Shown here: in pieces, positions 23,701 to 46,737 of the stretch
Position numbering within the stretch: the first letter of the stretch is position 1
How the letters are laid out: each line of letters starts with the position of its first letter
NCBI RefSeq assembly: GCF_039778605.1
Contig: NZ_CP156060.1
Span: 3,438,001 to 3,502,000, forward strand
Direction: 5' to 3'
From: Flavobacterium sp. WV_118_3
Lineage (GTDB): Bacteria; Bacteroidota; Bacteroidia; Flavobacteriales; Flavobacteriaceae
Length of the DNA: 64,000 bases
The notes under the pieces: generated by a model
Databases searched by the model: none
Told to the model about the DNA's origin: nothing
Seen by the model: only the letters and a program-made list of their open reading frames with translations
Translations under genes and position numbers: made by a program

Positions 23701-26700
23701 ATATTCCGGAAATTATGCCTTCGGCTAGTGTCGAAGATGATCCACTGGACCCTACTTCAAATAATAAATATGTACGTCCGCAATATTTAAGAAATGTAAC
23801 GGATTTTGTCAATAACTGGAAAACAAGCTGGGCAGAATCGTTATTACCATACCACCCGGAATACCAGTATCTGAAATATAATAAAGCAATTTGTGCTAAA
23901 ACAAATTCAGCCGGAGATAATTCGGATAGCTTTGATGAGAAACTTAAAGCCTTGGATTATACCAATGTCTTTACAACAAATGGAATGGCACAAAATTTAG
24001 TCAATATTACGGCTAATGACCCTTTCTATGACAGTCAGATTACAACAATGCCTGCGCAGGGTATTACGTATGAGGTAGAAACGGCTGCTGATTTTACCCT
24101 GAGAAGGAATTTGTTGGTGGAAGCGATGAATACCAATTATGAAGGTATTAAATTGGCTAATAATGCCCGATTGAATATGCTTCAGATGGCGTATTATACA
24201 ACTGTTTTCGGTAATGGAATTGCGCCAGCTTCTACCTATCAGAGTTTGGTTACCTCTCCGCTTAACCAGTTGCTTCCAATTCTTAATGCGCTGAATCCAA
24301 GTGAAAAAGAGCGTGTTTGGAAGAGCTTTGTGAATAACTATATCGCGTTTAAACAAAAAACGAGAACGGTATATTCCCATATGTTTGCTTTGAGAAATAG
24401 TGGTTATAACGGTTGTATTGGCGACGTACAGAACGTTGATACTTTTGTAACACTATTTGAAAAATATAATACAACAGGTAATTATAGTAACCTATTACAA
24501 CGAATCAACCAGGCTTTTGCAACTCCGGTTCCAACAACGCCTGCCGGTACAATACTGGCTTGTTCTACAACTACAGTAGCCTACTATAAAAATAAAGAAA
24601 AACGATTTATATCAGCTGATTACGGCTTTAACTCCGGTGTTCCGGGTTCACAGGCTATCGCCGATGCGACTGCCGATGCGGATGCACATACCTATCAGCA
24701 AACCGGAAAATGTCCCTTATTAGTGGATACGGAAAGTTTATTAAAAGGATTGATCAATCCTTCTTTCCAGAGCCAGGGATTATTACTTTACGGCTTTAAT
24801 GCCTATAGCATGCCGATGTTAACTCCGGATTTATTTAATTCGGTATTGTTAGACCCGGCTGCTTATGCGGCAAACCCACAAAATGTTACCATTAATGGAA
24901 ATATTGTTAATGGTGGAGCGAGCTTGAATCTTACTTTTAATACCGCGAGCGGTGTTATTTCACAACCAATCGAACTTAAGATTTTAACACAGACTTTATC
25001 TATAGGTTCCTATATGAATGGCTGTAACGAAACGTTACCGGCTCCTACATGGACGGCTTATAATACAAACTTTAAGATTGTTGATTTCAAGAACATTTAT
25101 TATGTGCCGGGATCATTTAATGCGGCCAATAATACCTATAAATTCCAGATTGTTGCGGTTCTAAAAAGACTTACGGGAACAAGTTGCCCGGCTCTTGAAG
25201 AGATCGTACTTGAAGGAACTGTTAAAGCAGCTATCGGACAATGTAGTTTTGGCGATTCAGCTGGAGAAACAGGTGAAAATTGCGACAAACGAGTGCGTTT
25301 TGAAAAAGCATTGGTACGCGTTATGAATGCTTTAAAAGGAACAAATCCAAATATTCCGGGACAATTGTTTACATCTGGTGTAGCCTTAAATGGTGCTCCC
25401 AATGATAAATATACCTATGGCAGCAGTGTTATGCCGGAGATATTAAGCGACTTAGCATTAAATTCGACCTGGTCGTGTAGTCCGAGTACCAGTTTTACAG
25501 TTAACGGTCCAACTCCGTTTACAATTTATAATCTGGTGAACGAATCCGGAAACCCATCTTTCCTTCCGGGCTCTTTTTATAGAGTAACGGGAATAAAGAT
25601 TGAAAAAAATATGGTGAATGGTGTTGCAAGTGGTGATGACAAAATTGCAATCAGCTATCTGGATCTAAAAGATCAGGTGTTTACCTTAAATGGACGTATC
25701 ACACCATTAAACTATAGTTGTATCTGTACGGAAGAAGTTTCTCCGATGCAAGTTGCTGCAGCTAACTTCTTAAATCTGACGAATCATCTTTGGAGTGTAG
25801 GAGGTAATTCCGGACCATTTTTACCAAGTATTATAGCAGATGGATATAACCCGGTACAAATGCAGGCGGTAGCACCGTATATAATTGGTAACAATCCAAC
25901 GGTGAACCAGTATACAACCAGCTGGTCTAACGGATTATCAACCCAAAGTGGAATTAAGTTTAATTTCTTTGCTGGTTCATCGGCATGTCAATTTGAGCTT
26001 CCGCTTTATACTCATCCAAAGAGAGGGGGGGCTTTTAATACTTATGTCCAGAGTATTACGCATTTTTCCAACTTTAAGATACTTCAGGATTTAGGCAATA
26101 ATACGTATGCTTTTAGTGTTTTTGTTCATCATGGTCCGTTTTCGGATGGTGACCGATTTGGAGCGACTCTTCCGGCCGGAATTCAGGAAGCTTATGGTAC
26201 GATAAGCTGCCTTCAGCAAGCGTTCTGCGAAGAGGAATTCGGAGTGACAAATGCATTGACAGCCGTGTTAAAGGATCTTATACAACAACAAACAGTGGCC
26301 GATGGTTCTACTGCTAACGGATTACCGGCTTTAAATACGTACGTTCAGTTATCTGGAGCGGCTCCGTCAGCCACTATCAATAACTTCTATAAAGTAGAAA
26401 ATAGTGCCAGTTCTCAAATTGGATTTACGTTTGCCAAAGAATCGGAATGTGAAGTAGTGTTTACAGTACCAGGTGTTTCGTTTGCAAATGTTACGAATAT
26501 TTCGGGATTGTCATTTACCAATACACAATCGGGTAATTTTACAGCTACGGTTACAACGAATACCGGAGCACAAATTGTTGCCAACGGTACCAGTAAATGT
26601 ATTACTGCACGAAAATGTAATTCCGTAATTCAGGTGCCTTGTACATCTTGTATACCGTCTACCGTTCCTCCGATGGCTTGTGTGGATAAATGGTTCCAGT

Positions 26701-29700
26701 TCCGCGATATAATGGATATCGTACAAGGGTATCAAATGCCGGATCATTTGGCTCAAGATGCGAAATATTTCTGTGAAGCCAACTTAGGTTATCTGGTTAC
26801 AGATTATATACATTATTTGAATATAACGGGAGCTTACGATGTTAGTATGCCGGCCTTTATATCGATAAGTGAATTCGGAGCAACCAATTTGAATTATGGT
26901 TATAATGGTACCCAAATGGTTATTAATGCCTATGGTACGTATTTGATGTCGCATCCGTTTATTGAGTGGAGTGAATTCGTAAATCAATATGTGACGGAAA
27001 ATAAAATTTGTCCACCAGCACCTATGGTTCCAACCATTAATCTGCAAGTAGATGATATTCCTACCCCTTGTGAGATTTTTGTTCACTCGGTACAACAGAC
27101 TTATTTACAGGAATTAATGGAGCAATATTTTGCTACAAAACGAGAAGAATTTAAACAAAAATATATTCAGGCCGCTATCAACGGATTACAGGAGTCGATG
27201 ACGAAAGTGTCTTATGATAAAGAATACCAATATACATTATACTATTATGATCAGGCAGGAAACTTAGTGCAAACGGTTCCACCGCAAGGGGTATCCCGAT
27301 TAGCACCTGGAGCCGACAGTACTATTAATGCTGTTCGAAACACGACGCCAGAAGAAGAGCAACAAGTTGTAAACGGTATTGTGGTAGATCCTAGTCACAC
27401 GATGAAAACGGTATACCGTTATAACTCCCTGAATCAGTTGGTATGGCAAAAAACACCGGATGGTGGCGAAACGCGATTTGCTTACGATCAGTTGGGACGT
27501 ATTATTGCCTCACAAAATGCAAAACAGGCCGCGATGCCGAAACCAAGATTTAGTTATACACTTTATGATGGTCTTGGACGTGTTGTGGAAGCTGGAGAAT
27601 ACGAGCCTCAGCAAGCTTATATTAACGAGGAAGGAAATGTTATCATAGGAGGTTCTCCTGTAGGCGATCTGGAAACGTATAATTATAGACGTTATGAAGT
27701 AACGCGAACGGTTTATGATACCCCGGTTGAAAATAGTACCGGCTGGTTTGAATCGTATTCCGATAATAATAACCACAAAAGAGTTACAGCTATACTAACG
27801 TATAGCATCCTGGAAGATGGCGTAAACTTTGATGAACAAAAAATTATCGCGAATGAGCTATATGATAATGCGATTTTGTACGATTATGATATCCATGGAA
27901 ACGTAAAAGAACTTATTTATCATACGAATAAAGAGGTCTTAAAAAGTTTAAACCAGGATGTCAAAAAAGTGATCTACGATTACGATTTGATTAGCGGAAA
28001 CGTAAATAGTGTTACGTACCAGCCTAAAAAAGCGGATCAGTTTATTCATCGTTATGAGTATGATGCCGATAACCGAATTACGCAGGTGTATACCAGTAAG
28101 GATAAAATCGTATGGGAAAAAGAAGCGAAATACGACTATTATGAACATGGACCTTTAGCGCGACTTGTAGTTGGAGATAAGCAAGTTCAGGGATTGGATT
28201 ATTTCTATACGCTTCAGGGATGGCTTAAAGGGGTAAACTCGGAAAAATTAGGCGCCGTGAGGAAAAGTTTCTATTCAACCAGTGATATTGGCCAAGATGG
28301 AATTGCTCAGAGTGGTACCGCTAAAGATGCATTTGCATTTGCACTTCATTATTATAATGGCGATTATGCTTCCAGACATCATATTGTAAATAGTGTTGAT
28401 AATTCACTTCTGTATTATACCAATACAGTAAATTTAGGAGGTAATAACGATTTGTATAATGGAAACATAAAAGCGATGGTTACTTCTTTAATGGATTTAT
28501 CGCAAGGAAATTTATTCTCACAGTATAATTATTACAGATATGATCAGTTAAATAGAATTAAGGCAATGAATTCCTTAAGAGTTAGTGATTTCTTTAATGA
28601 AACTTCCTATCAATCGGAGTATTCGTATGACAGAAATGGTAACATACTCACATTAAATCGTACCGCCCCGAGAGATAAAAATAGCGCATACACTGAAATA
28701 ATGGATGAATTGCGATATCATTATCAGGATGGAACGAATAAGCTGATGCATATTGATGATGCCGTTCCTAACGGAGCGTTTACTAATGATCCGTCGAATC
28801 CGAATGATACCACCTTGGATATCGATGATCAGGATAAAAACAACTACCAGTATGATGAGATTGGTCAGTTAACCCGTGATGAAAAAGAAGGCTTGAATAT
28901 TAGCTGGAGAGTGGATGGTAAAGTGAAAACGGTAACCAAAGCAAACGGAACGGTAATTGATTTTGAATACGATGGTTTAGGAAAAAGAATTGCTAAAATC
29001 GTTACCAATGGAAACGATGTGACCACTACGTTCTACCAACGCGATGCTCAAGGAAATACATTGAGTACCTATGAGATGGTTAAAACATGGGGGCAACCGG
29101 CCAAATACTACCTGGTTGAACAGGAGATTTACGGAAATAGCCGTCTTGGAGTTGAAAAAGGTAGAAAAGAGCTTAATGCAGATACCGGAAGAGGAATCGC
29201 TTTACGAATGGATGCGCTTGTAGCTACGGCACAAATTGCAGATAATGTTTCGCAGGCGTTATTAACAAATCCGTCTTCTATCTGGGGATTATCGTTTAGC
29301 GGAAATAACAATGTTACTTGGGGCGATGGCGACAAGAGTATCAATTTCTTTGATCAATCGGGAGGGAAAACGCAGGAATTTGAAATCAGAACGAATTTCA
29401 AAATTGTTGGAGGCTCAGCGATGACTGTCAATCAAAATCATGCGTTAGTAACTTTGGATGGTGCCCGAAGACCGGAATATAAACAATGGGATAATAGTAT
29501 TGCGCGTATTGTGATTAAGAGAAATGCCAATGGCGCCTATGTGCCGGCATTAGAAGTTGAAAAATATACCAAAAGGTTCCACCGTTATAAACCGTTCTTT
29601 GTTTTCCACAGACGTTGGAATTATAGAAACTATAAAACCGTTTGGACATATGAATTAAGAAATGCGATACCGGAAACAGAATGGAATTTCCATGCGAAGG

Positions 29701-31619
29701 TATCGGTGAATGGTGATAATTTTAGCCCACAGTTTACGATTAACGGAAATGTTTATACATCGAGAGATTTTATAGCGAATGTAAATCAAGAGTTAAACGG
29801 ACCGGAATCCGGTGATACAAGAGAATTCCCGGAGCCAGATCCTGTTTGGAATACTTTAGGTAAAACCTCAAAAACATATGGGAATGTAGACGGGAACTAT
29901 TTTGGGAATTCGTTCCAGGGAGCACCTGTTGAAATGTGTGATTTCACCTATACTGTAAATAATGGTCAGGGATCGGATAATACCCCGGTATATGTCTTCC
30001 CGTTTGATGAAGGCTTTGGAAATCCATCGTCAACAAACAACTTGTTAACAATGACGAATAATGGTGTTCCGTATTCACAATCGTATTGTGGACCAACAGC
30101 ATTAGATTCTGATGGTGATGGAATTCCGGATGCAGTGGATAACTGTCCGAATAAATTTAACCCGAATCAGAGTGATGTGGATGGTGATGGTGTTGGAGAT
30201 GTTTGTGACAACTGTATGTACACGTATAATCCAAACCAGGCCGATGCTGATGGTGATGGTAGAGGAGATGTTTGTGACAACTGTATCAACAATCCAAACT
30301 ACAATCAGATTGACACGGATGGTGACGGAAGAGGTGATGCTTGTGACAACTGTAGAACGATTTACAACCCAGGTCAGGAGGATGCTGACGGTGATGGTAT
30401 TGGAGATGTTTGTGAAGGATTGGATCAAGGACAGGGTACATCTGCAGCAATTGGAACGCCGGTTACAGCCTATCGTTTTGTAGGGGATAAAAACTATGAA
30501 TTATCGAACCATTTAGGGAACGTTCTTTCCGTAGTTACCGATCGTAAACTATTAGGACGTTATGGTACGAATTATCTGTTTTTACCAGATGTAATTTCAT
30601 ACAATGATTACTATCCGTTTGGGATGCTAGTGCCTAACCGCCACGAAGCCAGTAATGAGTACCGATACAGCTTTAATGGAAAGGAAAAAGATGACGAAAT
30701 TAAGGGTGAAGGAAATCATTATGATTATGGAATGAGAAATAATGATCCAAGATCAGGAAGATTTTTTAGTGTTGATCCTTTGACTAAATCCTACCCTGCA
30801 CTTACACCATATCAATTTGCATCAAACACCCCTATTATGGCTATTGATTTAGATGGAATGGAAGCAAAAGTGGTGACTTATGGAGTCAAAAACACTTATG
30901 ATGACAATTATGTTAAAGATTGTAGTGATGCTTGTGCTAGTAAATTAGGTCTTGAGCCAAAAGGGGTAAGTACGGGTAAAAATCTTTTAAGAGTTTTAAA
31001 GGATGAATCTTCTGGAAGTAATGAAACTATTTCTGCATGGGTAAATTACGGTCATAGCTGGAATAGAGGATTATTCTTAACAAATGATAATGGATTCTAT
31101 AGAGCTAACAATACTGCTCCTGGAGCAGGAGCAGATAATTTCAAAGGCCTTTTAAGAGAAACTAAAACAGGAAACATTACATTCTCAAAACATACATTGT
31201 TTATTTTTGCTAGTTGCGGGACAGCAGGAAATGGCTGGGGCGGTCATAATGTAGGAGGCGGCAAAGCAGCATATGATAATGCTTCTTTTTCTGCAACCAT
31301 TGGTGACTATGTTAATAAGAATTATAGTCTACCTGCCAGAGACTATACAGGATTTTATAAGATAACAACTATTGGCGCTACGGATTTATCTAATTTATTA
31401 AAAGATGGAACTGTTAAAACAGATGGAAGATTCTTTAAAACAGAGAAAGTGTATAAAATTGAACGGACAGTGCAGGAATCAGGTTGGTGGCCTTTTAAAA
31501 CAAGGAAATATATTGACAAAACAACTATAATTCAAACTAAGACTACAGACTTAGGAAAAAAAATCAACCCAACTGAACTAATGAAAGAACATAATGATCA
31601 GGATACAAAAATTCGCTAA
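20796..31619 (+). CDS. Giant DUF6443/YD-repeat Rhs polymorphic toxin with caspase/CHAT-like tip
   Basis: A 3607-residue exported protein. Signal peptide ~1-22 (ends FVFGQ). A DUF6443 segment lies at about 330-400 ([34 protein letters not shown]). A long Cys-containing beta region follows, including two modules near 1650 and 1815 akin to those in the upstream VWA protein. YD repeats run from ~2137 ([27 protein letters not shown]) to ~2750. Five thrombospondin-3-like Ca-binding repeats lie at ~3104-3208. The Rhs end core is [15 protein letters not shown], then YPFGMLVP (Tyr3273) and [13 protein letters not shown]. The variable tip begins after IDLDG (~3355) and contains YGHSWNRG (His3420) and [10 protein letters not shown] (Cys3474), a possible His-Cys protease dyad. 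The tip DNA is clearly more A/T-rich than the shell. The immunity gene overlaps the 3' end by 26 bases. Confidence 0.9.
30105..30420 (+). repeat. Thrombospondin type 3-like Ca-binding repeats in the Rhs protein
   Basis: Five tandem units of the form D.DGDG..D.CDNC...NP.Q encode residues ~3104-3208. The Asp-rich loops bind calcium in known TSP3 repeats. The segment lies just before the end core, so it would act as a stiff linker between shell and tip. Confidence 0.85.
30607..30643 (+). repeat. Rhs core site A, the active junction
   Basis: Inside the 3607-residue gene, coding [11 protein letters not shown]. Its first 37 bases (starting ATTACTATCCGTTTGGGATG) are an exact inverted copy of 40199-40235 (site E). 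The 21-base core at 30611-30631 is also found inverted at 33626-33646 (site B) and direct at 37196-37216 (site D). Confidence 0.85.
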
Positions 31620-32157
31620 AATTTTGTTAGTAGTTTTACTCTTAATACAGGTCGCTTGTATTAAGAGTAAAACTAATTTGAAAAGATCAAAATGTAATGA
31701 GCTGGTTCGTTTATATGATCCTTATTTACAGGAAATAGCGATGAAACGAAATGTTACCTATCCTATAGGTGACAAATTAGACAGTTTGTTCTCAACTTTA
31801 AATAAAAATGAAATAATTAATGATACCATTTTTAGAAAAGCCTTAATAGTTTTATTGGAAAAAAAATATTCATTTCTTGTTGACCACAATACATCCAAGA
31901 ATCTGTTTTATATTTATAATGTTTCAAATTGGGGAGGAGATGAAAAGTATATTCATTTTGCTGTTAATGTTATTTCTAATATAAAATTTGATGATAATGT
32001 GAGTTTTCAAGATTATTTAAACATTTATAAAGATAACGTTTGCATTGATGATATTGTTAAAGAAATGAGTACATATTCATTAACTAACGAAGAATTAATA
32101 ATTCATAAGCATTGTTTATCAACTCTTCCTACAAATTGCAAAATAGAACCAAACTAA
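31594..32157 (+). CDS. Putative immunity lipoprotein for tip 1 (copy 1)
   Basis: A 187-residue lipoprotein: basic MIRIQKFAK, hydrophobic core and lipobox LIQVAC with Cys22. The mature part is helical, with conserved-looking Asp/Asn and four cysteines. It starts 26 bases inside the end of the Rhs gene and is duplicated together with the tip at 38179-38742, exactly the arrangement of toxin-immunity pairs. Location in the periplasmic face of a membrane would suit a toxin acting in the envelope. No known immunity family recognised. Confidence 0.7.
31632..31674 (+). other. 18-bp perfect hairpin at the head of the immunity gene
   Basis: AGTTTTACTCTTAATACA (31632-31649) and its exact reverse complement (31657-31674) flank a 7-base loop. 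It lies in the signal-peptide codons of imm1, 13 bases after the Rhs stop. It could act as an attenuator, mRNA processing or stability element, or a recombinase site. The same hairpin occurs at 38217-38259 in the duplicate. Confidence 0.8.
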
Positions 32158-32193
32158 AAAAGCTTTTTCGCAATTAAATAAACTTTATATCTA

Positions 32194-32233
32194 AAAAACA
32201 AAACCTAGCTCTTAAAAGCTAGGTTTTGTTTTT
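32194..32233. terminator. Shared bidirectional terminator between imm1 and imm2
   Basis: A perfect 17-bp palindrome (arms 32194-32210 and 32217-32233, inner sequence AACCTAGCT) with a 6-base loop and A/T runs at both ends. It lies between two convergent immunity genes and can serve both. Confidence 0.85.
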
Positions 32234-32262
32234 AGGATGATAAAAACTCCCTTATGATATGA

Positions 32263-32550
32263 TTAATGTAATTGCGACAATATCATAAACATGATTAAGA
32301 AGGGAAGTATAATTCCAAACAAAGCAAATCCAATTTGTTTTGAAAATTCTTTTTTTAGCATTCTTTTTTTTAAAAGCAGAAGAACCAAAGCTATAGCAAT
32401 AAATACACCTATACAAGAAAAAGAAGTAATCAATATTCCTAAATATGGAATCATAAAAGAATTTCCTTTATGGATGAAATTGTGATCAATTATGCCAATC
32501 AACAGAATTAGTAATTCCGACAAGAAATAAAGAAACCCAATGTTTTTCAT
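32263..32550 (-). CDS. Putative membrane immunity protein for tip 2 (copy 1)
   Basis: A 95-residue protein with three hydrophobic helices (about 4-22, 35-60, 72-92) separated by short basic loops (KKRMLKKEFSK). It lies 9 bases downstream of the minus-strand tip 2 frame and is copied with it at 38848-39135. Position and co-duplication are the basis for calling it immunity; no family is recognised. Confidence 0.65.
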   Translation of the reverse strand: MKNIGFLYFLSELLILLIGIIDHNFIHKGNSFMIPYLGILITSFSCIGVFIAIALVLLLLKKRMLKKEFSKQIGFALFGIILPFLIMFMILSQLH

Positions 32551-32559
32551 TTTAACGGA

Positions 32560-33633
32560 TTATTTTTTAATTTTTATTTTATATGTAGTTATCGTAGTAT
32601 ATATTGGCGTTCCTACAGTTGAACTCCCTCCTGAAACTTGTTCTGCTGATGAACTCTCGGTGTATTTTATTCCTTTTTGATTTAAGTATATTTTTAAATT
32701 ATCGATATTGTGTTTTGATGTTGAGCTAAAACTTTTAACCCCGGTCTTTAACCCTATATAAGATTCAAGCAAGAATATGTTCGAATTCTTATTTCCTCCA
32801 TTTTTTTGTACTAAGTCAAAAATTGCTAAATCTGGCTTTGAGTTCGTAATTTGATTATTGTACTTGAATTTTTTATTATTAAATAACTGTATTAAAGTGT
32901 ATTGATACATTTTGTATTCATAAGGTCTATCTGCAATATCGTCAGCATGAAAATTACCATTACCTCCCCAGAAAGCGTGTTCGAGGGTTATACGTCCAAG
33001 AACAGGTAGCCAAATATTCGTTTTCCCCCACATTGTTCTATTCTTATTATCATCTACATAACTGTGTGCCCAAGAATCACCTACTGTATGCAATTGATTC
33101 AAATCCCCACTTAAGACATTTTCTTGAGCTTTCTTCAATACATCACTTTGTTTGCCTCCTGTTAAACCATGCCACGATTTTTGCAATGATTTGTCAGCCC
33201 ATGTTCCGATTCCAAATAGGCGACTAAAACCTTCACCATTATCATGTGAAAGATGTAATGGCATCGTATTATTTGCTCCTGCCACATGATGATCATAATA
33301 CTCCGCATGGATAGCCAAAGACCTTGCTGTAGCCTTATTCAGTCCCATTGCAATCCCCATTGCGTATACAGTCCAAAAGTGCCCATCTTCTTCCCAATTA
33401 CCATCGCTATCTTTATATCTCATAGGGTTGTCAAAACCAAATCTGTATGGAGACCAATCAGGAGCTTTCATTCTCATTTTATCAACCGCAAACCATCTTC
33501 CTGTTCTCGGATCATACATCCTTGCGCCAAAATCGTAACTATCACCTTCACCTTTTATCTCATCATCTTTTTCCTTTCCATTAAACCCATAACGATATGA
33601 TTCTGAAGCTTCGTGACGGTTAGGTACTAGCAT
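32560..33633 (-). CDS. Orphan Rhs tip 2 (zinc-hydrolase-like), copy 1
   Basis: 357 codons from the ATG of the YPFGM core. It encodes only the end of an Rhs protein: [20 protein letters not shown], then DPRTGRWFAVD and a variable tip from ~75. In frame, the codons Y-P-F-G lie just before the ATG, and a TGA closes the frame about 12 codons upstream, so no shell is attached and no promoter is evident. The tip has DGHFWTVYAMG (His85), HAEYYDHH (~109-116) and LHTVGDSWAHS (His182, Asp186, His190). This is an HxxxDxxxH pattern reminiscent of zinc-dependent phospholipase C / DUF6765-like enzymes. Probably silent unless recombined onto the shell; start at the internal ATG is formal. Confidence 0.75.
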   Translation of the reverse strand: MLVPNRHEASESYRYGFNGKEKDDEIKGEGDSYDFGARMYDPRTGRWFAVDKMRMKAPDWSPYRFGFDNPMRYKDSDGNWEEDGHFWTVYAMGIAMGLNKATARSLAIHAEYYDHHVAGANNTMPLHLSHDNGEGFSRLFGIGTWADKSLQKSWHGLTGGKQSDVLKKAQENVLSGDLNQLHTVGDSWAHSYVDDNKNRTMWGKTNIWLPVLGRITLEHAFWGGNGNFHADDIADRPYEYKMYQYTLIQLFNNKKFKYNNQITNSKPDLAIFDLVQKNGGNKNSNIFLLESYIGLKTGVKSFSSTSKHNIDNLKIYLNQKGIKYTESSSAEQVSGGSSTVGTPIYTTITTYKIKIKK

Positions 33634-33646
33634 CCCAAACGGATAG
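33626..33646 (-). repeat. Rhs core site B, inverted relative to site A
   Basis: The minus strand reads CTATCCGTTTGGGATGCT plus AGT, identical to 30611-30631. Upstream of it on the minus strand the sequence no longer resembles an Rhs shell. Confidence 0.85.
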
Positions 33647-33806
33647 AAATAAATTAATTCAAAACTTCAATAATTACAAGAATTTTACAAATAAAATTGT
33701 TCCTAGAAAATGGCTATCTAATGTAAAAAGCAAGCTCCTCCTAATGTTTTCTTGATTTTATGAAACTTGAACACATTATTGTATATGATTATCTCAAATA
33801 CTATAT

Positions 33807-33846
33807 AAACAAGAGGCAGTCTCAATATAGAGCCTACCTCTTGTTT
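33807..33846 (-). terminator. Hairpin terminator after imm3
   Basis: Arms AAACAAGAGG (33807-33816) and CCTCTTGTTT (33837-33846) with a partly paired interior. It lies 5 bases beyond the stop of the minus-strand membrane protein gene. Confidence 0.55.
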
Positions 33847-33850
33847 TATT

Positions 33851-34291
33851 TTACCAATTTTCCATTTGCTTTTTAAAATAAGGTATTTGTGCCAAAAAAA
33901 TCGGGGCTAGAAATATGGATATACAAGTTATTACAAACATCGATCCTTCTGCTGGCAACGGAGTGTTATCCCATAGAAATTCTGACAATAAAGATAGTAT
34001 GACATAAACTCCTAAGTTAAAAAAAGAGAACAATAAAGGTTTATATCTTATTTTAACAATAGAAATATACTTAAAGCACAAGGAGAAAATAATGATTAAA
34101 GGTAAACCATGAAATAGTAACCTCCAAAAACTCCATACTCCTGCTCCATAATATGCTTTACTGACATAAAAGGAATCAAAACCAAATTCAAAAGTGTCAA
34201 TCAAGACAAGCATTAAAAAGCTCAATACTATTTCTATTAAAAACAAAGAAGTATAAAACAAAATAAAACGTGCAATCTTACTTGTCATCAT
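33851..34291 (-). CDS. Putative membrane immunity protein for tip 3
   Basis: A 146-residue protein with four hydrophobic helices (about 8-31, 55-75, 83-103, 118-138) and few charged residues. It overlaps the 3' end of the tip 3 frame by 14 bases, the typical toxin-immunity overlap. A terminator follows. No family recognised; immunity is inferred from position only. Confidence 0.65.
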   Translation of the reverse strand: MMTSKIARFILFYTSLFLIEIVLSFLMLVLIDTFEFGFDSFYVSKAYYGAGVWSFWRLLFHGLPLIIIFSLCFKYISIVKIRYKPLLFSFFNLGVYVILSLLSEFLWDNTPLPAEGSMFVITCISIFLAPIFLAQIPYFKKQMENW

Positions 34292-35225
34292 GTGCCATTT
34301 TTATTAATTCTTTACCTAGTTTTACTCGATCTCTATAACGCTTAAAATCAAACGTTTTTCCACCTTCGAAATGTTCTTTCATTACCTTTTTAACTTCTGA
34401 TGCACCAATAGGACTGCTCATTAATTTATTAACACCTGCAATTATTTTTTTTAAATCACCACGATAATTTTTAATAAACTCTTGAACTTTTGACTGTTCA
34501 TATTCTACCATTTTATAATCCAGATCAATTCCAACTAATCCTTCGAATGATTGTCTTACTCCATTTGCGTCAGTAAAACTTTTGGTAAGTTTTCCGTCAT
34601 CCAATAGGTCCTTTGCATTTCTCATATTACGCTCGAACAAAAATTGATTTCCTTCTTGAAGGAATCGGTCTACTTCATCACTTGAAAAATATCCTCTATC
34701 TGGTATCTCTGTACCTCCCACTGCTCTATATCCAGTAACAATTTCTGCTGCTCCGAACCATTGAGAATTAATTCCTTTTTTATCAGCTTCTTTTTGAACC
34801 CATGCATAATAGGCATTTCTTTGACGAACCGTTCTATAAGCATCGTATCTTAAATGTTCCGTACTATAAAGTGCTGCATCATTAAACGATTTTTTATGGT
34901 AGATCCCACCTGTCTGATACCATTGTGTTGGTCTTAGTTTAAGCAGACGATATGACATCACGAATCCTAAATATGACGGGACAGGTTCTTTACCATCAGC
35001 ATCAATAAAAAACATTGGATTATTTCCCATGGATGAATAAGATGACCATTGTGGATATTTTCCTTCTAAAGGATCCCTAGTAAACCATCTTCCTGTTCTC
35101 GGATCATACATTCTATCACCAAAGTCAAAGCTATTTCCTTCACCTTTTAACTCATCGTCTTTTTCTTTTCCATTAAACCCATAACGATATGATTCTGAGG
35201 ACTCGTGACGGTTTGGCACCAGCAT
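34278..35225 (-). CDS. Orphan Rhs tip 3, unknown effector
   Basis: 315 codons from the ATG of the YPFGM core: [33 protein letters not shown], then IDADGKEPVPSY, where the variable tip begins (~80). The tip is mainly helical and charged, with QRNAYYAWVQKEADKKG, GINSQWFGAAEIVTGYRAVG and a Lys/Arg-rich C-terminus (FKRYRDRVKLGKELIK). I recognise no nuclease, deaminase or protease motif. It has no shell upstream, so it is a stored tip like tip 2. An immunity candidate overlaps its end. Confidence 0.7.
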   Translation of the reverse strand: MLVPNRHESSESYRYGFNGKEKDDELKGEGNSFDFGDRMYDPRTGRWFTRDPLEGKYPQWSSYSSMGNNPMFFIDADGKEPVPSYLGFVMSYRLLKLRPTQWYQTGGIYHKKSFNDAALYSTEHLRYDAYRTVRQRNAYYAWVQKEADKKGINSQWFGAAEIVTGYRAVGGTEIPDRGYFSSDEVDRFLQEGNQFLFERNMRNAKDLLDDGKLTKSFTDANGVRQSFEGLVGIDLDYKMVEYEQSKVQEFIKNYRGDLKKIIAGVNKLMSSPIGASEVKKVMKEHFEGGKTFDFKRYRDRVKLGKELIKMAHDDK

Positions 35226-35238
35226 CCCAAACGGATAG
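35215..35238 (-). repeat. Rhs core site C, inverted relative to site A
   Basis: The minus strand reads CTATCCGTTTGGGATGCT followed by GGTGCC, one mismatch from site A over 24 bases. It heads tip 3. Confidence 0.8.
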
Positions 35239-35365
35239 TACTATAATTGCTGAAATAGGTAGTAATTATAAAGGGTTTGAACTTAATCATATGCTCAAAA
35301 AATGACATCCAGAAGTCAAAAAAGCCTTAAAAATCGCCGTGTTTTTGAATGAAATTACAGATTGA
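35237..35365 (+). pseudogene. Possible C-terminal relic of a lost plus-strand tip
   Basis: Directly abutting site C, the plus strand reads in one frame IIAEIGSNYKGFELNHMLKK, stop (TGA at 35303-35305), HPEVKKALKIAVFLNEITD, stop. The composition and single internal stop look like the decayed tail of a protein. It is short, so chance is possible. Confidence 0.3.
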
Positions 35366-35459
35366 AATTGAACGTTATTATTGGTTAAAATTTAATTTGA
35401 ATATAAGATTTTTTATTGCGGAAATAGTTTTACTTTTGAAAAAAATAACAAGTAAAACC

Positions 35460-35969
35460 GTGTTCGAAAATAAATTCCGTATTTTAATCATAACAAACAT
35501 TGCTTTGTTTTTGTTGATCGCCGTTGGAGCTGCCACTTTCTTTATAGCTAATAATAGCCCTAAAATTGTTTTTGTAGATAATGTTAAGCTTTTTGATGGC
35601 TTTAATATGACTAAAGAACTAAAAAAGAGAGGCGAACAGGAATTTAATTCCCGAAAAAAAGTTTTAGATAGTTTGTATGCTGTCTTACAACAGGAAGGTG
35701 CTTCCGAAATACAAAAAGAAGCCATCACCAGAGAATTGATAGCCAAAAAGCAGGAGTTCGAAGCATTTAATCAGCAATTTGCGACTGAAGAATCCGCTAA
35801 AATATGGTCTAGAATAAATGGTTATACTTCGGATTTTTCAAAAGAAAAAAACTACGACTTTATCTTAGGATCCGAAAACAAACGATCTGTTCTCTTTGCT
35901 AAAGAAACTGTAGACATCACTAACGAATTGATCATCTATATTAATAAAAAATACGAGGGTAATCAATAG
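35460..35969 (+). CDS. Membrane-anchored OmpH/Skp-like protein
   Basis: Residues after the anchor follow the OmpH (Skp chaperone) pattern: PKIVFVDNVKLFDGFNMTKEL, then a ~70-residue charged coiled coil (KKRGEQEFNSRKKVLDSLYA to QEFEAFNQQF) and a closing YDFILGSENKRSVLFAKETVDIT. I chose the GTG at 35460, giving 169 residues with one N-terminal membrane helix (~8-29). A TACTTTTG promoter element lies at 35431-35438, and the longer frame from the ATG at 35349 would begin inside the relic just upstream. OmpH-like proteins hold outer-membrane proteins in the periplasm; here a signal anchor replaces a cleavable signal. It sits among Rhs tips and may be cargo of the region or a chaperone; unknown. Confidence 0.65.
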   Translation: MFENKFRILIITNIALFLLIAVGAATFFIANNSPKIVFVDNVKLFDGFNMTKELKKRGEQEFNSRKKVLDSLYAVLQQEGASEIQKEAITRELIAKKQEFEAFNQQFATEESAKIWSRINGYTSDFSKEKNYDFILGSENKRSVLFAKETVDITNELIIYINKKYEGNQ

Positions 35970-36038
35970 GCTTATTTAGATTACCCTTTTAGGATTTCTT
36001 TATTGTTTACTAAAGCATTCTGGAAACATAGTATAACT

Positions 36039-37085
36039 CTACTGCATACTATTTTCCAATTTCAGATGTACTTTTTCAATTTCCTTGTCAATATATACCT
36101 GAGCATAGTGTACATAGCGATTAAACGAACCACTCGCATGACTATGGCCGCTTATTTTTCGAACCAGATGTTCCGGCATACCCAAAATAAGTAATGTCGT
36201 AATTGCGGTTCGTCGCATCATATGCGAACTCATTTTATCGCAAAAACGATTCGGAGCCTTGTTGTTTTGTTTTAGTAAACGTTTCCCTTGTTTTTCCCGT
36301 GAAACTTCAACAGAAGCCGTAAAATTGGCTAATTCACCTATTTGTTTGAGGCTTTTGTTAAAGTTAAACAGGCTTGTACTTCCAAATACCGGATTTTTGA
36401 CATTTTTAGTCTTGTACTTTTGATAAATTGCCACTGCATAAGCCGGAAGTTTTATATGACTGAAGGTTTTGGTCTTTTTGGATTTTAATTTTAAATACCA
36501 GTCGTTTTCTACTTGTTCAAAATTCTTATTCGTCAGTAGAAAAATATCGGAGTAACGTAATCCTGTTGTACAGCCAAAAACAAAAATATCTTTAATCCGA
36601 CGATTACTCACGGATAAACTATTTTCAAATTCTTTATCATGGATCAGAAATTTTAATTGTTCCGGTGATAAAACCAGGATTTCGATTTCTTCCTTGCGAA
36701 CATAAAACAACCGTTGAAAATCTCCGGTAAAGAAATCTTTGTCGTTTTTCAGATAGTTAAAAAACACCCGGATTACTTTAATGTTGGAGCCAACATAATT
36801 GTCATGACAGCCTTTTTTGTATAAATAATCCGTGAATTTTTGGTAGAATTTTTTCCAATAGTTTTTTTCCGATTGTAATTCTCTTTTATTCAGTTTTGAA
36901 GCATCACAAATCCGTAATTCAAAACTGGTATCACTTGAAAACTGAATCAGGTTTTGTAAAACATAATGATAATTTTGTATAGAATCCGGTTTGATACGTT
37001 CGCCATTCTTTTTCAGACGTTTTCCGGTTTCGGTATCTTTTATGAATTGCTTAAACAGTGAGGGTATAGGGGTAGTCTTTTTCAT
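36039..37085 (-). CDS. Tyrosine recombinase (phage-integrase family) inside the tip array
   Basis: A 348-residue protein of the Bacteroidota tyrosine recombinase group. N-terminal SAM-like/core-binding helices span ~1-135 and the catalytic domain ~140-335. The catalytic set is complete: Arg177 in TTGLRYSD, a beta-hairpin lysine in KSKKTKT (~202-206), His288-x-x-Arg291 in SHMMRRTA, His314 in SGHSHASG and the nucleophile Tyr324 in FNRYVHYA. Such enzymes integrate mobile elements or invert promoters and shufflon segments. It stands alone, between tip 3 and the duplicated cassette, with no other phage or transposon genes, which makes local rearrangement of the tips a plausible job. Residual integrase from an old element is the alternative. 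Confidence 0.9.
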   Translation of the reverse strand: MKKTTPIPSLFKQFIKDTETGKRLKKNGERIKPDSIQNYHYVLQNLIQFSSDTSFELRICDASKLNKRELQSEKNYWKKFYQKFTDYLYKKGCHDNYVGSNIKVIRVFFNYLKNDKDFFTGDFQRLFYVRKEEIEILVLSPEQLKFLIHDKEFENSLSVSNRRIKDIFVFGCTTGLRYSDIFLLTNKNFEQVENDWYLKLKSKKTKTFSHIKLPAYAVAIYQKYKTKNVKNPVFGSTSLFNFNKSLKQIGELANFTASVEVSREKQGKRLLKQNNKAPNRFCDKMSSHMMRRTAITTLLILGMPEHLVRKISGHSHASGSFNRYVHYAQVYIDKEIEKVHLKLENSMQ

Positions 37086-37184
37086 TGTAATATTTCTCCA
37101 AAAATATCAGTTCAGAATGAAAGATGAAAAGCTATGATGTTAAAAATTACAGATTTTTGTAAGTGATAGCATTCAATTTGTTTT

Positions 37185-38204
37185 ATGTTTTATCACTATC
37201 CGTTTGGGATGCTAGTGCCTAACCGCCACGAAGCCAGTAATGAGTACCGATACAGCTTTAATGGAAAGGAAAAAGATGACGAAATTAAGGGTGAAGGAAA
37301 TCATTATGATTATGGAATGAGAAATAATGATCCAAGATCAGGAAGATTTTTTAGTGTTGATCCTTTGACTAAATCCTACCCTGCACTTACACCATATCAA
37401 TTTGCATCAAACACCCCTATTATGGCTATTGATTTAGATGGAATGGAAGCAAAAGTGGTGACTTATGGAGTCAAAAACACTTATGATGACAATTATGTTA
37501 AAGATTGTAGTGATGCTTGTGCTAGTAAATTAGGTCTTGAGCCAAAAGGGGTAAGTACGGGTAAAAATCTTTTAAGAGTTTTAAAGGATGAATCTTCTGG
37601 AAGTAATGAAACTATTTCTGCATGGGTAAATTACGGTCATAGCTGGAATAGAGGATTATTCTTAACAAATGATAATGGATTCTATAGAGCTAACAATACT
37701 GCTCCTGGAGCAGGAGCAGATAATTTCAAAGGCCTTTTAAGAGAAACTAAAACAGGAAACATTACATTCTCAAAACATACATTGTTTATTTTTGCTAGTT
37801 GCGGGACAGCAGGAAATGGCTGGGGCGGTCATAATGTAGGAGGCGGCAAAGCAGCATATGATAATGCTTCTTTTTCTGCAACCATTGGTGACTATGTTAA
37901 TAAGAATTATAGTCTACCTGCCAGAGACTATACAGGATTTTATAAGATAACAACTATTGGCGCTACGGATTTATCTAATTTATTAAAAGATGGAACTGTT
38001 AAAACAGATGGAAGATTCTTTAAAACAGAGAAAGTGTATAAAATTGAACGGACAGTGCAGGAATCAGGTTGGTGGCCTTTTAAAACAAGGAAATATATTG
38101 ACAAAACAACTATAATTCAAACTAAGACTACAGACTTAGGAAAAAAAATCAACCCAACTGAACTAATGAAAGAACATAATGATCAGGATACAAAAATTCG
38201 CTAA
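37185..38204 (+). CDS. Orphan copy of Rhs tip 1 (caspase/CHAT-like)
   Basis: 339 codons; from residue 5 on it is identical to the last 335 residues of the 3607-residue Rhs protein (YPFGM core, [10 protein letters not shown] and the tip). The His and Cys of the putative dyad are His152 (NYGHSWNRG) and Cys206 (FASCGTAG). The first four residues (MFYH) come from unrelated flanking DNA; there is no shell and no signal peptide. It is followed by its immunity gene, overlapping by 26 bases. It is a stored or displaced duplicate, and could be recombined back by exchange with site A. Confidence 0.8.
   Translation: MFYHYPFGMLVPNRHEASNEYRYSFNGKEKDDEIKGEGNHYDYGMRNNDPRSGRFFSVDPLTKSYPALTPYQFASNTPIMAIDLDGMEAKVVTYGVKNTYDDNYVKDCSDACASKLGLEPKGVSTGKNLLRVLKDESSGSNETISAWVNYGHSWNRGLFLTNDNGFYRANNTAPGAGADNFKGLLRETKTGNITFSKHTLFIFASCGTAGNGWGGHNVGGGKAAYDNASFSATIGDYVNKNYSLPARDYTGFYKITTIGATDLSNLLKDGTVKTDGRFFKTEKVYKIERTVQESGWWPFKTRKYIDKTTIIQTKTTDLGKKINPTELMKEHNDQDTKIR
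37196..37216 (+). repeat. Rhs core site D, direct relative to site A
   Basis: Reads CTATCCGTTTGGGATGCT plus AGT as at 30611-30631, and the identity continues rightwards for the whole cassette. To the left identity stops after one further base. Confidence 0.85.
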
Positions 38205-38742
38205 AATTTTGTTAGTAGTTTTACTCTTAATACAGGTCGCTTGTATTAAGAGTAAAACTAATTTGAAAAGATCAAAATGTAATGAGCTGGTTCGTTTATA
38301 TGATCCTTATTTACAGGAAATAGCGATGAAACGAAATGTTACCTATCCTATAGGTGACAAATTAGACAGTTTGTTCTCAACTTTAAATAAAAATGAAATA
38401 ATTAATGATACCATTTTTAGAAAAGCCTTAATAGTTTTATTGGAAAAAAAATATTCATTTCTTGTTGACCACAATACATCCAAGAATCTGTTTTATATTT
38501 ATAATGTTTCAAATTGGGGAGGAGATGAAAAGTATATTCATTTTGCTGTTAATGTTATTTCTAATATAAAATTTGATGATAATGTGAGTTTTCAAGATTA
38601 TTTAAACATTTATAAAGATAACGTTTGCATTGATGATATTGTTAAAGAAATGAGTACATATTCATTAACTAACGAAGAATTAATAATTCATAAGCATTGT
38701 TTATCAACTCTTCCTACAAATTGCAAAATAGAACCAAACTAA
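38179..38742 (+). CDS. Putative immunity lipoprotein for tip 1 (copy 2)
   Basis: Identical in protein sequence to the 31594-32157 product (187 residues, lipobox Cys22). Unlike copy 1 it could protect the cell even when another tip is on the shell, if it is transcribed. The 18-bp hairpin at its head is at 38217-38259. Confidence 0.7.
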   Translation: MIRIQKFAKILLVVLLLIQVACIKSKTNLKRSKCNELVRLYDPYLQEIAMKRNVTYPIGDKLDSLFSTLNKNEIINDTIFRKALIVLLEKKYSFLVDHNTSKNLFYIYNVSNWGGDEKYIHFAVNVISNIKFDDNVSFQDYLNIYKDNVCIDDIVKEMSTYSLTNEELIIHKHCLSTLPTNCKIEPN

Positions 38743-38778
38743 AAAAGCTTTTTCGCAATTAAATAAACTTTATATCTA

Positions 38779-38818
38779 AAAAACAAAACCTAGCTCTTAA
38801 AAGCTAGGTTTTGTTTTT
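38779..38818. terminator. Shared bidirectional terminator (copy 2)
   Basis: Same 17-bp palindrome as at 32194-32233, between the two convergent immunity genes of the duplicate. Confidence 0.85.
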
Positions 38819-38847
38819 AGGATGATAAAAACTCCCTTATGATATGA

Positions 38848-39135
38848 TTAATGTAATTGCGACAATATCATAAACATGATTAAGAAGGGAAGTATAATTC
38901 CAAACAAAGCAAATCCAATTTGTTTTGAAAATTCTTTTTTTAGCATTCTTTTTTTTAAAAGCAGAAGAACCAAAGCTATAGCAATAAATACACCTATACA
39001 AGAAAAAGAAGTAATCAATATTCCTAAATATGGAATCATAAAAGAATTTCCTTTATGGATGAAATTGTGATCAATTATGCCAATCAACAGAATTAGTAAT
39101 TCCGACAAGAAATAAAGAAACCCAATGTTTTTCAT
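38848..39135 (-). CDS. Putative membrane immunity protein for tip 2 (copy 2)
   Basis: Identical to the 95-residue, three-helix product of 32263-32550, again directly downstream of tip 2. Retention of both copies intact argues that the pair is under selection, or that the duplication is recent. Confidence 0.65.
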   Translation of the reverse strand: MKNIGFLYFLSELLILLIGIIDHNFIHKGNSFMIPYLGILITSFSCIGVFIAIALVLLLLKKRMLKKEFSKQIGFALFGIILPFLIMFMILSQLH

Positions 39136-39144
39136 TTTAACGGA

Positions 39145-40218
39145 TTATTTTTTAATTTTTATTTTATATGTAGTTATCGTAGTATATATTGGCGTTCCTA
39201 CAGTTGAACTCCCTCCTGAAACTTGTTCTGCTGATGAACTCTCGGTGTATTTTATTCCTTTTTGATTTAAGTATATTTTTAAATTATCGATATTGTGTTT
39301 TGATGTTGAGCTAAAACTTTTAACCCCGGTCTTTAACCCTATATAAGATTCAAGCAAGAATATGTTCGAATTCTTATTTCCTCCATTTTTTTGTACTAAG
39401 TCAAAAATTGCTAAATCTGGCTTTGAGTTCGTAATTTGATTATTGTACTTGAATTTTTTATTATTAAATAACTGTATTAAAGTGTATTGATACATTTTGT
39501 ATTCATAAGGTCTATCTGCAATATCGTCAGCATGAAAATTACCATTACCTCCCCAGAAAGCGTGTTCGAGGGTTATACGTCCAAGAACAGGTAGCCAAAT
39601 ATTCGTTTTCCCCCACATTGTTCTATTCTTATTATCATCTACATAACTGTGTGCCCAAGAATCACCTACTGTATGCAATTGATTCAAATCCCCACTTAAG
39701 ACATTTTCTTGAGCTTTCTTCAATACATCACTTTGTTTGCCTCCTGTTAAACCATGCCACGATTTTTGCAATGATTTGTCAGCCCATGTTCCGATTCCAA
39801 ATAGGCGACTAAAACCTTCACCATTATCATGTGAAAGATGTAATGGCATCGTATTATTTGCTCCTGCCACATGATGATCATAATACTCCGCATGGATAGC
39901 CAAAGACCTTGCTGTAGCCTTATTCAGTCCCATTGCAATCCCCATTGCGTATACAGTCCAAAAGTGCCCATCTTCTTCCCAATTACCATCGCTATCTTTA
40001 TATCTCATAGGGTTGTCAAAACCAAATCTGTATGGAGACCAATCAGGAGCTTTCATTCTCATTTTATCAACCGCAAACCATCTTCCTGTTCTCGGATCAT
40101 ACATCCTTGCGCCAAAATCGTAACTATCACCTTCACCTTTTATCTCATCATCTTTTTCCTTTCCATTAAACCCATAACGATATGATTCTGAGGACTCATG
40201 GCGGTTAGGCACTAGCAT
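39145..40218 (-). CDS. Orphan Rhs tip 2 (zinc-hydrolase-like), copy 2
   Basis: 357 codons, identical to the 32560-33633 product except residue 9 (Ser instead of Ala). The difference lies in the core, where the DNA matches site A on its left part and site C (GAGTCCTCAGA) on its right part, so the head looks like a recombinant. The HxxxDxxxH motif (His182, Asp186, His190) is intact. No shell upstream. Confidence 0.75.
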   Translation of the reverse strand: MLVPNRHESSESYRYGFNGKEKDDEIKGEGDSYDFGARMYDPRTGRWFAVDKMRMKAPDWSPYRFGFDNPMRYKDSDGNWEEDGHFWTVYAMGIAMGLNKATARSLAIHAEYYDHHVAGANNTMPLHLSHDNGEGFSRLFGIGTWADKSLQKSWHGLTGGKQSDVLKKAQENVLSGDLNQLHTVGDSWAHSYVDDNKNRTMWGKTNIWLPVLGRITLEHAFWGGNGNFHADDIADRPYEYKMYQYTLIQLFNNKKFKYNNQITNSKPDLAIFDLVQKNGGNKNSNIFLLESYIGLKTGVKSFSSTSKHNIDNLKIYLNQKGIKYTESSSAEQVSGGSSTVGTPIYTTITTYKIKIKK

Positions 40219-40235
40219 CCCAAACGGATAGTAAT
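40199..40235 (-). repeat. Rhs core site E, exact 37-base inverted partner of site A
   Basis: The minus strand starts ATTACTATCCGTTTGGGATG and continues to ACCGCCA, identical to 30607-30643. Beyond this the right side follows site C. It is therefore a mosaic and the best visible footprint of exchange between core copies. Confidence 0.8.
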
Positions 40236-40446
40236 TATATTTATGTAACTATCATATTTATAATGATTTGAGTTGTGATTGTAACTCGATAAAAATACGA
40301 ATTCCCGCAAAAAAAGCCTCTTTTTTTAACTAAAAAAGTAGGATTTAACAACTCAAATTAACGTGCTTTTAGAAATAATATCGGCATAAAAAGGTTTTTT
40401 CTCAGGTTAAGGAAAAAATATTATCTTGCGACGATTAAAATAATAA

Positions 40447-41220
40447 TTGAACCCCTTGAAAACAAAGACTTTATTTCGTTTTTTTTACATACCATTAGTA
40501 GTACTATTCCTTTCTTTTACGGATCCGTACCTGATAAAACGGATTTCAGATAGCAACTTTCGTTACGAGTTTTACACAACCGATAAAAGTGTAAACCCAA
40601 AATCCGGAAAAACCTATTATTGGTTTAAAGGGGGTGCGATTCATAACGCGCAGGGTGGCGTTGCCGGTCAGTTGCTACACGACGGTTATACCAAAATGTA
40701 CCACAGTAACCAACTCGCGGAACAAGGGAAATTTGACGAAGGACTAAAAACCGGCTGGTGGAAAACCTGGTATACCAACGGAACTTTGGAAACAACCCAA
40801 TACTGGAACAACGGTTTAAAAACCGGAGCGTTTAACCGCTTTAACGATAAAGGTGAGCTGATCGAAAAAGGTTATTTTAAAAAGGATCAAAGACATGGTA
40901 AATGGATCGATCTGGCTAAAAAAGATACGGTAGTCTATAAAAACGGAGTTGTTTTTGTCGCCAAACCAAAGCTTACAAAAGAAGAAAAAGCCAAACTAAA
41001 AGAAGAGCAAAAAGCGGCAAAAGCTGCTAAAAAAGCACAGGAGAAACTGGATAAAGAGAAAAAGGCGCGCGATAAAGAAAATAAAAAGCAACAAAAGGAA
41101 CGCGAGAAAGAACAGCAAAACCTGAAACAGCAGCAACAGCCGCAGGAAAAGGAAAGTTTCTTTAAGCGACTATTCCGCAAAAAAGAACCCAAAGTAACTA
41201 CCAATGGTAAAGGCGCATAG
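40447..41220 (+). CDS. Exported MORN-repeat protein heading the secretion operon
   Basis: A 257-residue protein from the TTG at 40447 (a second TTG at 40456 is possible; no ATG is in place). A hydrophobic segment at ~10-27 is a signal anchor. Three MORN/YwqK-like repeats follow (GYTKMYHSNQLAEQGKF, GWWKTWYTNGTLETTQYWNN, GAFNRFNDKGELIEKGYF; ~78-150). The last ~90 residues are a Lys/Glu/Gln-rich coiled coil ending FFKRLFRKKEPK. It overlaps the next gene by 17 bases, so it is coupled to the type II secretion-like operon; its role there is unknown. Confidence 0.7.
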   Translation: MNPLKTKTLFRFFYIPLVVLFLSFTDPYLIKRISDSNFRYEFYTTDKSVNPKSGKTYYWFKGGAIHNAQGGVAGQLLHDGYTKMYHSNQLAEQGKFDEGLKTGWWKTWYTNGTLETTQYWNNGLKTGAFNRFNDKGELIEKGYFKKDQRHGKWIDLAKKDTVVYKNGVVFVAKPKLTKEEKAKLKEEQKAAKAAKKAQEKLDKEKKARDKENKKQQKEREKEQQNLKQQQQPQEKESFFKRLFRKKEPKVTTNGKGA

Positions 41221-42418: not shown

Positions 42419-42740
42419 AATCCCGGCAAATTCCATTTTGGAATCCGTAATCGCACTGACGATCATTTCGATTTGTCTCTATATCGCGATTTCGGTTTAT
42501 GCGGCCGTATTTACACCGCGTACATCAGCGAAGTTTTACAATACGCAGAATAAAGTCAATGAAATATTTTACCTGATGCAATTGCAAGGCGATTCGTTGC
42601 AATATGAGGGTGAAGATCCAAACCTGGAAATAGAAGAGGAAACCGTAAATCCCGGAGTGAAAAAAATATCCGTACACTATAAAGATAGTACCAATTTCAA
42701 GTTTGAAAAGAATTTTTACATACAAGGTAACGGCGAATAA
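42393..42740 (+). CDS. Minor pseudopilin (GspI/J-like)
   Basis: Start at the ATG 42393-42395 gives 115 residues and a proper prepilin leader, MALLKKYCKIPA, cut before NSILESVIALTIISICLYI with Glu at +5. An in-frame upstream ATG (42312) would bury the leader, so I reject it. The soluble part is short and acidic with strands (KKISVHYKDSTNFKF). It overlaps the preceding gene by 26 bases and the next by 38. Confidence 0.75.
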   Translation: MALLKKYCKIPANSILESVIALTIISICLYIAISVYAAVFTPRTSAKFYNTQNKVNEIFYLMQLQGDSLQYEGEDPNLEIEEETVNPGVKKISVHYKDSTNFKFEKNFYIQGNGE

Positions 42741-44336: not shown

Positions 44337-44357
44337 TACGGATGTCATTAATGTTTG

Positions 44358-44365
44358 TATTTTTG
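44358..44365 (+). promoter_or_regulatory. -7 promoter element of the major pseudopilin gene
   Basis: TATTTTTG fits TAnnTTTG, 48 bases before the gspG ATG, in the only sizeable gap of the operon. A separate promoter would allow more of the major pseudopilin than of the machinery. No clear -33 TTG. Confidence 0.4.
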
Positions 44366-44412
44366 CGCCCGTTAATAATTAACACTTTTTTAATAAATAA
44401 AATAGGATAAAG

Positions 44413-44847: not shown

Positions 44848-44848
44848 T

Positions 44849-46734: not shown

Positions 46735-46737
46735 ATA

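Follow-up and report, generated by a model that had tools for sequence, protein, structure and literature searches.

Within a stretch of 64,000 nucleotides from Flavobacterium sp. WV_118_3 (hereafter the window; positions 3,438,001 to 3,502,000 of contig NZ_CP156060.1, assembly GCF_039778605.1), we find an Rhs locus in which a single shell gene is accompanied by alternative C-terminal tips with putative immunity genes. We propose that this locus is very probably an Rhs tip shufflon, in which a dedicated tyrosine recombinase inverts tips together with their immunity genes. Comparison with related genomes carries the argument: it shows inversion with end points at short sites, opposed sites with sharp left edges that are linked to one recombinase family and found in both orientations, and two contexts for one tip within single assemblies. 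From these comparisons we infer that the family recombinase performs the inversion, and by extension the five sites of the window (A to E) are presumably active and its strain presumably switches.

In the mechanism we propose, the recombinase would recombine short sites inside the Rhs core coding sequence. Inversion between the shell site and an opposed cassette site would fuse a different tip in frame to the single shell, and the adjacent immunity gene would be carried along. Many relatives would be two-state loci (shell, tip, immunity, recombinase, immunity, tip, flank). The window would be an enlarged version in which tip 1, 2 or 3 could reach the shell through inversion A-B, A-C or A-E, either directly or following a D-E inversion. 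The benefit of switching may be a mixed armoury within one clone.

Opposed sites and a resident recombinase in the window

The site consensus, GATTAC followed by TATCCNTTYGGNATGCT, lies within the Rhs core coding sequence and codes for DYYPFGML. An 18-mer coding for YPFGM occurs in the window in five exact copies, starting at 30611 (+, site A), 33629 (-, B), 35221 (-, C), 37196 (+, D) and 40214 (-, E), a number far above chance (mean 0.04, maximum 1 and none with five in 100 shuffles). Each site is in frame with a tip open reading frame (ORF), and only at A does a long ORF continue upstream; this ORF (20796..31619, + strand, 3607 amino acids) comprises the shell and tip 1. The initial annotation of this DNA had described five such cores in these orientations, a shell at A only and a codon phase common to all sites, and each of these points stands. 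YD repeats and an Rhs-associated core precede the variable C-terminus, as in an Rhs polymorphic toxin. The left bases of the site appear tolerant, with ATTAC retained only at A and E and GATTAC missing at B, C and D. This tolerant-left asymmetry is reminiscent of the R64 sfx sites.

The order along the window is shell, site A, tip 1, immunity gene 1, immunity gene 2, tip 2 and site B; immunity gene 3, tip 3 and site C; an OmpH-like gene; the recombinase; and, between D and E, tip 1, immunity gene 1, immunity gene 2 and tip 2 again, followed by the flank (Table 1). The two copies of the four-gene block (30610-33606 and 37195-40191) are identical over 2,997 bp with zero mismatches; on its left side the identity stops at the site, and the sequences beyond the sites are unrelated. 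In the light of the relatives, the layout is better described as two segments with a head at each end (A..C and D..E) on either side of a recombinase core, B being an additional internal site. The initial annotation had each site heading a different or duplicated tip with a putative immunity gene; five in-frame cassettes, all with open tip ORFs, are indeed present, and since two of them are exact duplicates the number of distinct tips is three. We name the immunity genes from their position and size alone, a small ORF adjoining each tip. They have no Pfam match and no NCBIfam match above cut-off, and the three tips have no Pfam match above cut-off. The tips would be toxins and the small genes their immunities.

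The resident tyrosine recombinase, also recognised from the start, does match PF00589 (Table 1). It looks intact, being full length and carrying conserved residues: R177, K204, H288, R291, H314 and Y324 are each present in at least 99% of 76 relatives, and their assignment as the catalytic R-K-H-R-H-Y set is our own. The window's genome holds one copy of this recombinase family. No solved structure matched the protein by sequence, its PHROGs matches are generic integrase families only, and no Pfam or NCBIfam model specific to Rci matched it.

As an internal contrast, we used a second Rhs array of the same genome, found by the site pattern at 3817-3828 kb. Its six heads are all on the + strand, in line with the earlier statement that ordinary Rhs loci keep their tips in one orientation, and the 60 bp upstream of each head are similar among heads. 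This region holds no relative of the window recombinase and none of the genome's five PF00589 matches.

Recombinase linkage and inversion at the sites among relatives

Scanning one genome per species, we obtained 90 recombinase relatives and kept the best 80 loci, with up to 10 kb of DNA on each side; not all come from separate genomes (L057 and L061 share one, as do L075 and L088). Using a protein-level search, cassette heads are found in 75/80 loci, and in 55/80 a + head lies to the left of a - head so that the two face each other. Stricter definitions give lower counts: the strict YPFGM pattern finds cores in 61 loci, and YPFG sites that head a frame of 200 codons or more (or one truncated by an end) occur in 68. 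Five loci (L041, L066, L069, L070 and L107) have no head within the flanks covered. As controls we took 12 loci of other tyrosine recombinases (eight distant relatives and four other recombinases of the window's genome; 11-20 kb each), and none has a head (p about 2e-11).

With the window's genome included each time, the recombinase is present in 12 of 299 family genomes (at least 400 bits); at E<=1e-60 it is present in 5 of 101 genus genomes and in 6 of 395 phylum genomes. A separate branch of the recombinase tree is formed by five loci, which come from Chitinophagaceae, Chitinophagales and a Bacteroidetes metagenome-assembled genome; L088, L089, L100, L103 and L108 were excluded from the tree as their recombinases translate short from the match start. 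The strict 23-base site pattern occurs in 10 of the 299 family genomes; the five with at least two copies all have the recombinase and the five with one copy have none (p=0.008), but this test is weak, and the pattern is absent in 7 of the 12 strong-match genomes. Of 113 tips (110 listed, plus three from the window) we aligned and scanned 77, and some match models for Ntox23, Ntox35, LHH nuclease, RES, CdiA_C_tRNase, PT-HINT or metallopeptidase. On these toxin-domain matches, the switched parts in the family are probably toxins.

Within a locus, the two sites agree along 23 bp, silent positions included, while their upstream sequences are unrelated. Across 45 opposed pairs from 41 loci, identity is 0.36 from -80 to -10, 0.80-0.95 from -6 to -1, 0.96-1.00 from 0 to +16, and 0.78 at +17. 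At the silent positions +5, +8 and +11 it is 1.00, 1.00 and 0.96 within loci, compared with 0.51, 0.56 and 0.38 between loci, and at the third positions +17, +20 and +23 it falls to 0.78, 0.76 and 0.73 within loci. Because silent identity drops just past the site, coding constraint and common ancestry are insufficient as an explanation; an identity requirement of strand exchange, or homogenisation through such exchange, would account for the step. Two exchanges narrow the interval further: that in Seonamhaeicola aphaedonensis (G301) lies upstream of +17 and that between loci L036 and L099 lies in +4..+22, so that they overlap from +4 to +16. Contig ends near the recombinase also cluster at the sites, 29 of 48 falling within 144 bp of a head start.

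The initial annotation had held that a lack of order variation among relatives would speak against inversion. Order does vary, in the side of the shell, in the arrangement of locus pairs and in the flanks joined to a tip in draft assemblies. In loci with the recombinase between two opposed sites, the shell (an open frame upstream of a site, at least 150 codons long) is on the left in 10 and on the right in 11, whereas 8/8 loci with the recombinase outside the sites have the shell on the far side. Inversion of the intervening segment predicts this split (Fisher p=0.012, or p=0.031 for 10:8 versus 8:0 without three loci with long repeats), although both p-values are optimistic because the eight outside loci belong mainly to two clades. 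Shell side carries no phylogenetic signal in the 20 inside loci that were labelled (7 changes; shuffles 6.88, standard deviation 1.10); L089 is missing from these 20, yet counted in the 10:11. Four loci with the shell on the left and no opposite site (L048, L068, L090 and L103) were not counted and would make the ratio 14:11, and L033 was counted although its right-hand site heads a frame of 34 codons.

Among 13 pairs of loci compared, three (L033/L034, L042/L044 and L036/L099) are inverted between the sites relative to both flanks. In the cleanest pair, L036/L099, an inverted segment of 4,808 bp is 99.96% identical, the overlap at the site is about 30 bp, and the flanks are 99.9% (1.7 kb) and 95.9% (8 kb) identical. 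Apart from three collinear pairs considered below, the remaining pairs share too little flank to judge.

Single assemblies provide a further line of evidence. We queried 16 genomes by the site pattern and read junctions in 12 draft assemblies, 4 of which join two different flanks to the same tip: F. cupreum (G300), S. aphaedonensis (G301), F. piscinae (G303) and F. humi (G783). In the first three, the exact site pattern gives two flanks and two cassettes each, both flanks enter the same cassette for 120, 88 and 121 bp, respectively, and the tips diverge after 41, 17 and 26 bp. In F. humi, the shell and another flank both join tip 3, the latter over 119 bp. Two flanks on one tip are impossible from one arrangement without duplication, and such junctions are as would be expected of mixed cultures. 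Two other candidates were set aside: at L059 (G786) one base distinguishes the flanks and there is a further copy, and the excess junctions of G299 are also compatible with a collapsed inverted duplication of contig C15.

The sister species F. supellecticarium has a recombinase 99% identical to that of the window, a shell 98.1% identical over 9,911 bp and an E flank 94.3% identical over 5,979 bp, and its cassettes between shell and E flank are largely different. Its shell contig and E-flank contig end in the same cassette (one base different in 127), and a contig of 4.2 kb has the same C-type flank at both ends. These junctions fit inversion at A, C and E; a collapsed inverted duplication fits as well, so we do not count them as evidence. 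The original proposal that inversion joins new tips to the shell is thus upheld by comparison for the relatives, and for WV_118_3 we infer switching from them.

Weighing inversion against other explanations

Besides the clustering of the outside loci in two clades, a number of observations weigh against a tip shufflon. The window itself is one closed arrangement. Its two tip 2 heads (B and E copies) differ at six places between +20 and +38 (33607-33625 versus 40192-40210), as if heads had been exchanged by crossover or conversion, so that some exchange went past the proposed site. In G195 an opposed site pair has no family recombinase within the 20 kb covered, and in G302, G304, G305 and G306 the breaks at sites are compatible with a single arrangement. 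The L036/L099 pair has no shell in the 21 kb covered, and the L099 recombinase is frame-broken, so its flip would have come before the break or occurred in trans. Lastly, L071/L075 are collinear, and L052/L053 and L037/L106 are collinear on their one common flank.

One alternative, which we consider unlikely, is that the recombinase mainly moves tip-immunity cassettes by integration and excision, as in an integron, with inversion as a by-product. The mobilisation-like genes (assigned by eye) beside the shell-less module of L036/L099, the resemblance of the A..B and D..E copies to site-bounded cassette exchange, and the different cassettes between the same outer flanks in the sister genome are all in its favor. 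However, the convergent heads around or beside the recombinase in 55/80 loci are needed for inversion and not for excision.

It is similarly improbable that the window locus is a dead archive, a former switch now fixed on tip 1. While ATTAC survives at A and E only and a single closed arrangement is seen, the recombinase has its full length and the conserved residues and shares 99% identity with its counterpart in the sister species, each of the five tip ORFs is open, and the perfect 3-kb duplicate with sites at its borders suggests that the locus was active recently.

We assign a very low probability to RecA-mediated homologous recombination between similar heads, which would flip or duplicate segments with the recombinase as a bystander. 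Heads are homologous well past the site, exact inverted repeats of 147-223 bp occur in L073, L040 and L092, and the E head of the window is mosaic up to +38. Against this, the G301 exchange took place within 24 shared bp (7 upstream and 17 downstream) and that of L036/L099 within +4..+22, and such stretches are short for general recombination. RecA would also leave unexplained both the 75/80 linkage and the restriction of silent-site identity to 23 bp, and in the array of the same genome that lacks the recombinase all six heads point the same way.

Least probable of all, mixed junctions and orientations might be assembly artefacts or collapsed duplications, given that 3 of 21 inside loci have those exact inverted repeats (147-223 bp), a length at which short reads can be misled, that G299 also fits a collapsed inverted duplication, and that G783 has a repeated 128-bp flank; but the shell-side split holds without the three long-repeat loci, the G300, G301 and G303 tips diverge after 17-41 bp in a shared context of 88-121 bp with only two flanks and two cassettes each, and the L036/L099 repeat is only about 30 bp.

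Surrounding genes, known systems and implications

Table 1. Features of the Rhs locus, in window positions
Feature	Position	Strand	Remarks
Rhs shell part of 3607-amino-acid ORF	20796..30611	+	ends at YPFGM site A; TIGR03696 Rhs_assc_core, YD repeats above cut-off; DUF6443
Site A	30606..30628	+	shell-attached; 23-bp extent as defined on relatives
Exact duplicate of 37195-40191 (2,997 bp)	30610..33606	+	contains tip 1, immunity genes 1 and 2, tip 2
Tip 1, fused to shell (expressed position)	30612..31619	+	ORF; no Pfam match
Putative immunity gene 1, 187 amino acids	31594..32157	+	by position; no Pfam match
Putative immunity gene 2, 95 amino acids	32263..32550	-	by position; no Pfam match
Tip 2 cassette headed by site B	32560..33645	-	ORF; Rhs_assc_core head
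Site B	33629..33651	-	internal; left bases deviate from GATTAC
Putative immunity gene 3, 146 amino acids	33851..34291	-	by position; no Pfam match
Tip 3 cassette headed by site C	34278..35237	-	ORF; Rhs_assc_core head
Site C	35221..35243	-	at one edge of recombinase core segment; homologous sister-genome contig ends here
Tyrosine recombinase, 348 amino acids, proposed invertase	36039..37085	-	Phage_integrase PF00589, 4.7e-11; between C and D
Site D	37191..37213	+	other edge of recombinase core segment
Tip 1 second copy, without shell	37197..38204	+	ORF; sequence comparison
Putative immunity gene 1 second copy	38179..38742	+	ORF; sequence comparison
Putative immunity gene 2 second copy	38848..39135	-	ORF; sequence comparison
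Tip 2 second copy headed by site E	39145..40230	-	head deviates from B copy at six places
Site E	40214..40236	-	outermost site; ATTAC in common with A

Three genes that precede the shell and run in the same direction (10997-20784; 1863 amino acids, 1151 amino acids with a VWA domain, and 240 amino acids) possibly form one operon with it. The OmpH/Skp-like gene (35349-35969; PF03938, 3.2e-13) lies within the recombinase core segment, and the homologous segment of the sister species covers the same interval. Downstream of site E, 41204-48654 holds type II secretion/pilus-like genes (matches to T2SSF, T2SSE and secretin); genes that look similar by eye lie beside L168, the Rhs inversion locus of another genus. 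Delivery of Rhs by such a system is conceivable.

Some further loci deserve mention. The shell-less two-tip module with recombinase of L036 (6628-15278) and L099 (6151-14800), beside mobilisation-like genes by eye, may itself be mobile. At L167:9913-12169, opposed Rhs heads lie 2.2 kb apart, one on a long ORF, with no family recombinase in 20 kb; the single recombinase match of that genome is on another contig, from which it could act in trans. For 25 of 120 listed metagenomic relatives of the recombinase, the longest contig is 4-5 kb, close to the size of a single invertible segment, as would result if assemblies were interrupted at both sites.

The window has opposed sites within coding sequence, one constant part that can be joined in frame to alternative C-termini, and a recombinase within the array; alternative arrangements are found in relatives and not in the window's own strain. 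The R64 pilV shufflon (Rci, sfx) likewise has a tyrosine recombinase, several sites in both orientations inside coding sequence, and alternative C-termini for one constant N-terminal part; its sites are asymmetric (PMC11852207). The Rhs locus differs in that it is chromosomal, its cargo is a toxin tip with an immunity gene and not the end of a pilus adhesin, and its site codes for an Rhs core motif; we liken the two by arrangement, not by Rci sequence. The same paper describes Tsr0667 of Bacteroides fragilis, a tyrosine recombinase from the same phylum that shuffles alternative SusC/SusD alleles, its cargo being outer-membrane transporter genes with promoters and not toxin tips.

Within Rhs biology, orphan tips with C-terminal displacement (Jackson 2009, PMC2935791, in the portion available) also combine one shell with stored tips and immunity genes, but those tips share one orientation and their exchange is attributed to other routes, whereas the tips of the window are opposed. 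Excerpts of a paper on O. hominis likewise explain 26 orphan tips by displacement. Zhang 2012 (PMC3482391) places XerC/D-like recombinases near some polyimmunity loci of polymorphic toxins and, in its first 300,000 characters, suggests accumulation of immunity genes and does not contain the words "inversion", "inverted" or "shufflon". Among the matches listed in a full-text literature search, no paper treats recombinase inversion of Rhs tips; most subscription journals lie outside its coverage, and novelty is not proven.

The family looks like a conserved application of the shufflon principle to polymorphic toxins. We are evenly divided on a broader proposal, that this recombinase family (mainly Flavobacteriaceae, with some Chitinophagales) is an Rhs tip-switching device, in which in-frame inversion would yield a standing mixture of toxins behind one shell and enlarged loci would act as a multi-slot magazine through nested inversions and cassette exchange, also taking up new tip-immunity pairs. 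Rhs tip replacement is usually attributed to displacement over evolutionary time; a reversible, programmed in-frame switch would instead vary the toxin of one clone within generations. This would raise the question of how siblings in different states escape mutual killing, and of whether they express their silent immunity genes. The frequent breaks inside Rhs genes in draft assemblies of these genomes would be explained as well, and the system would offer a compact pair of recombinase and site.

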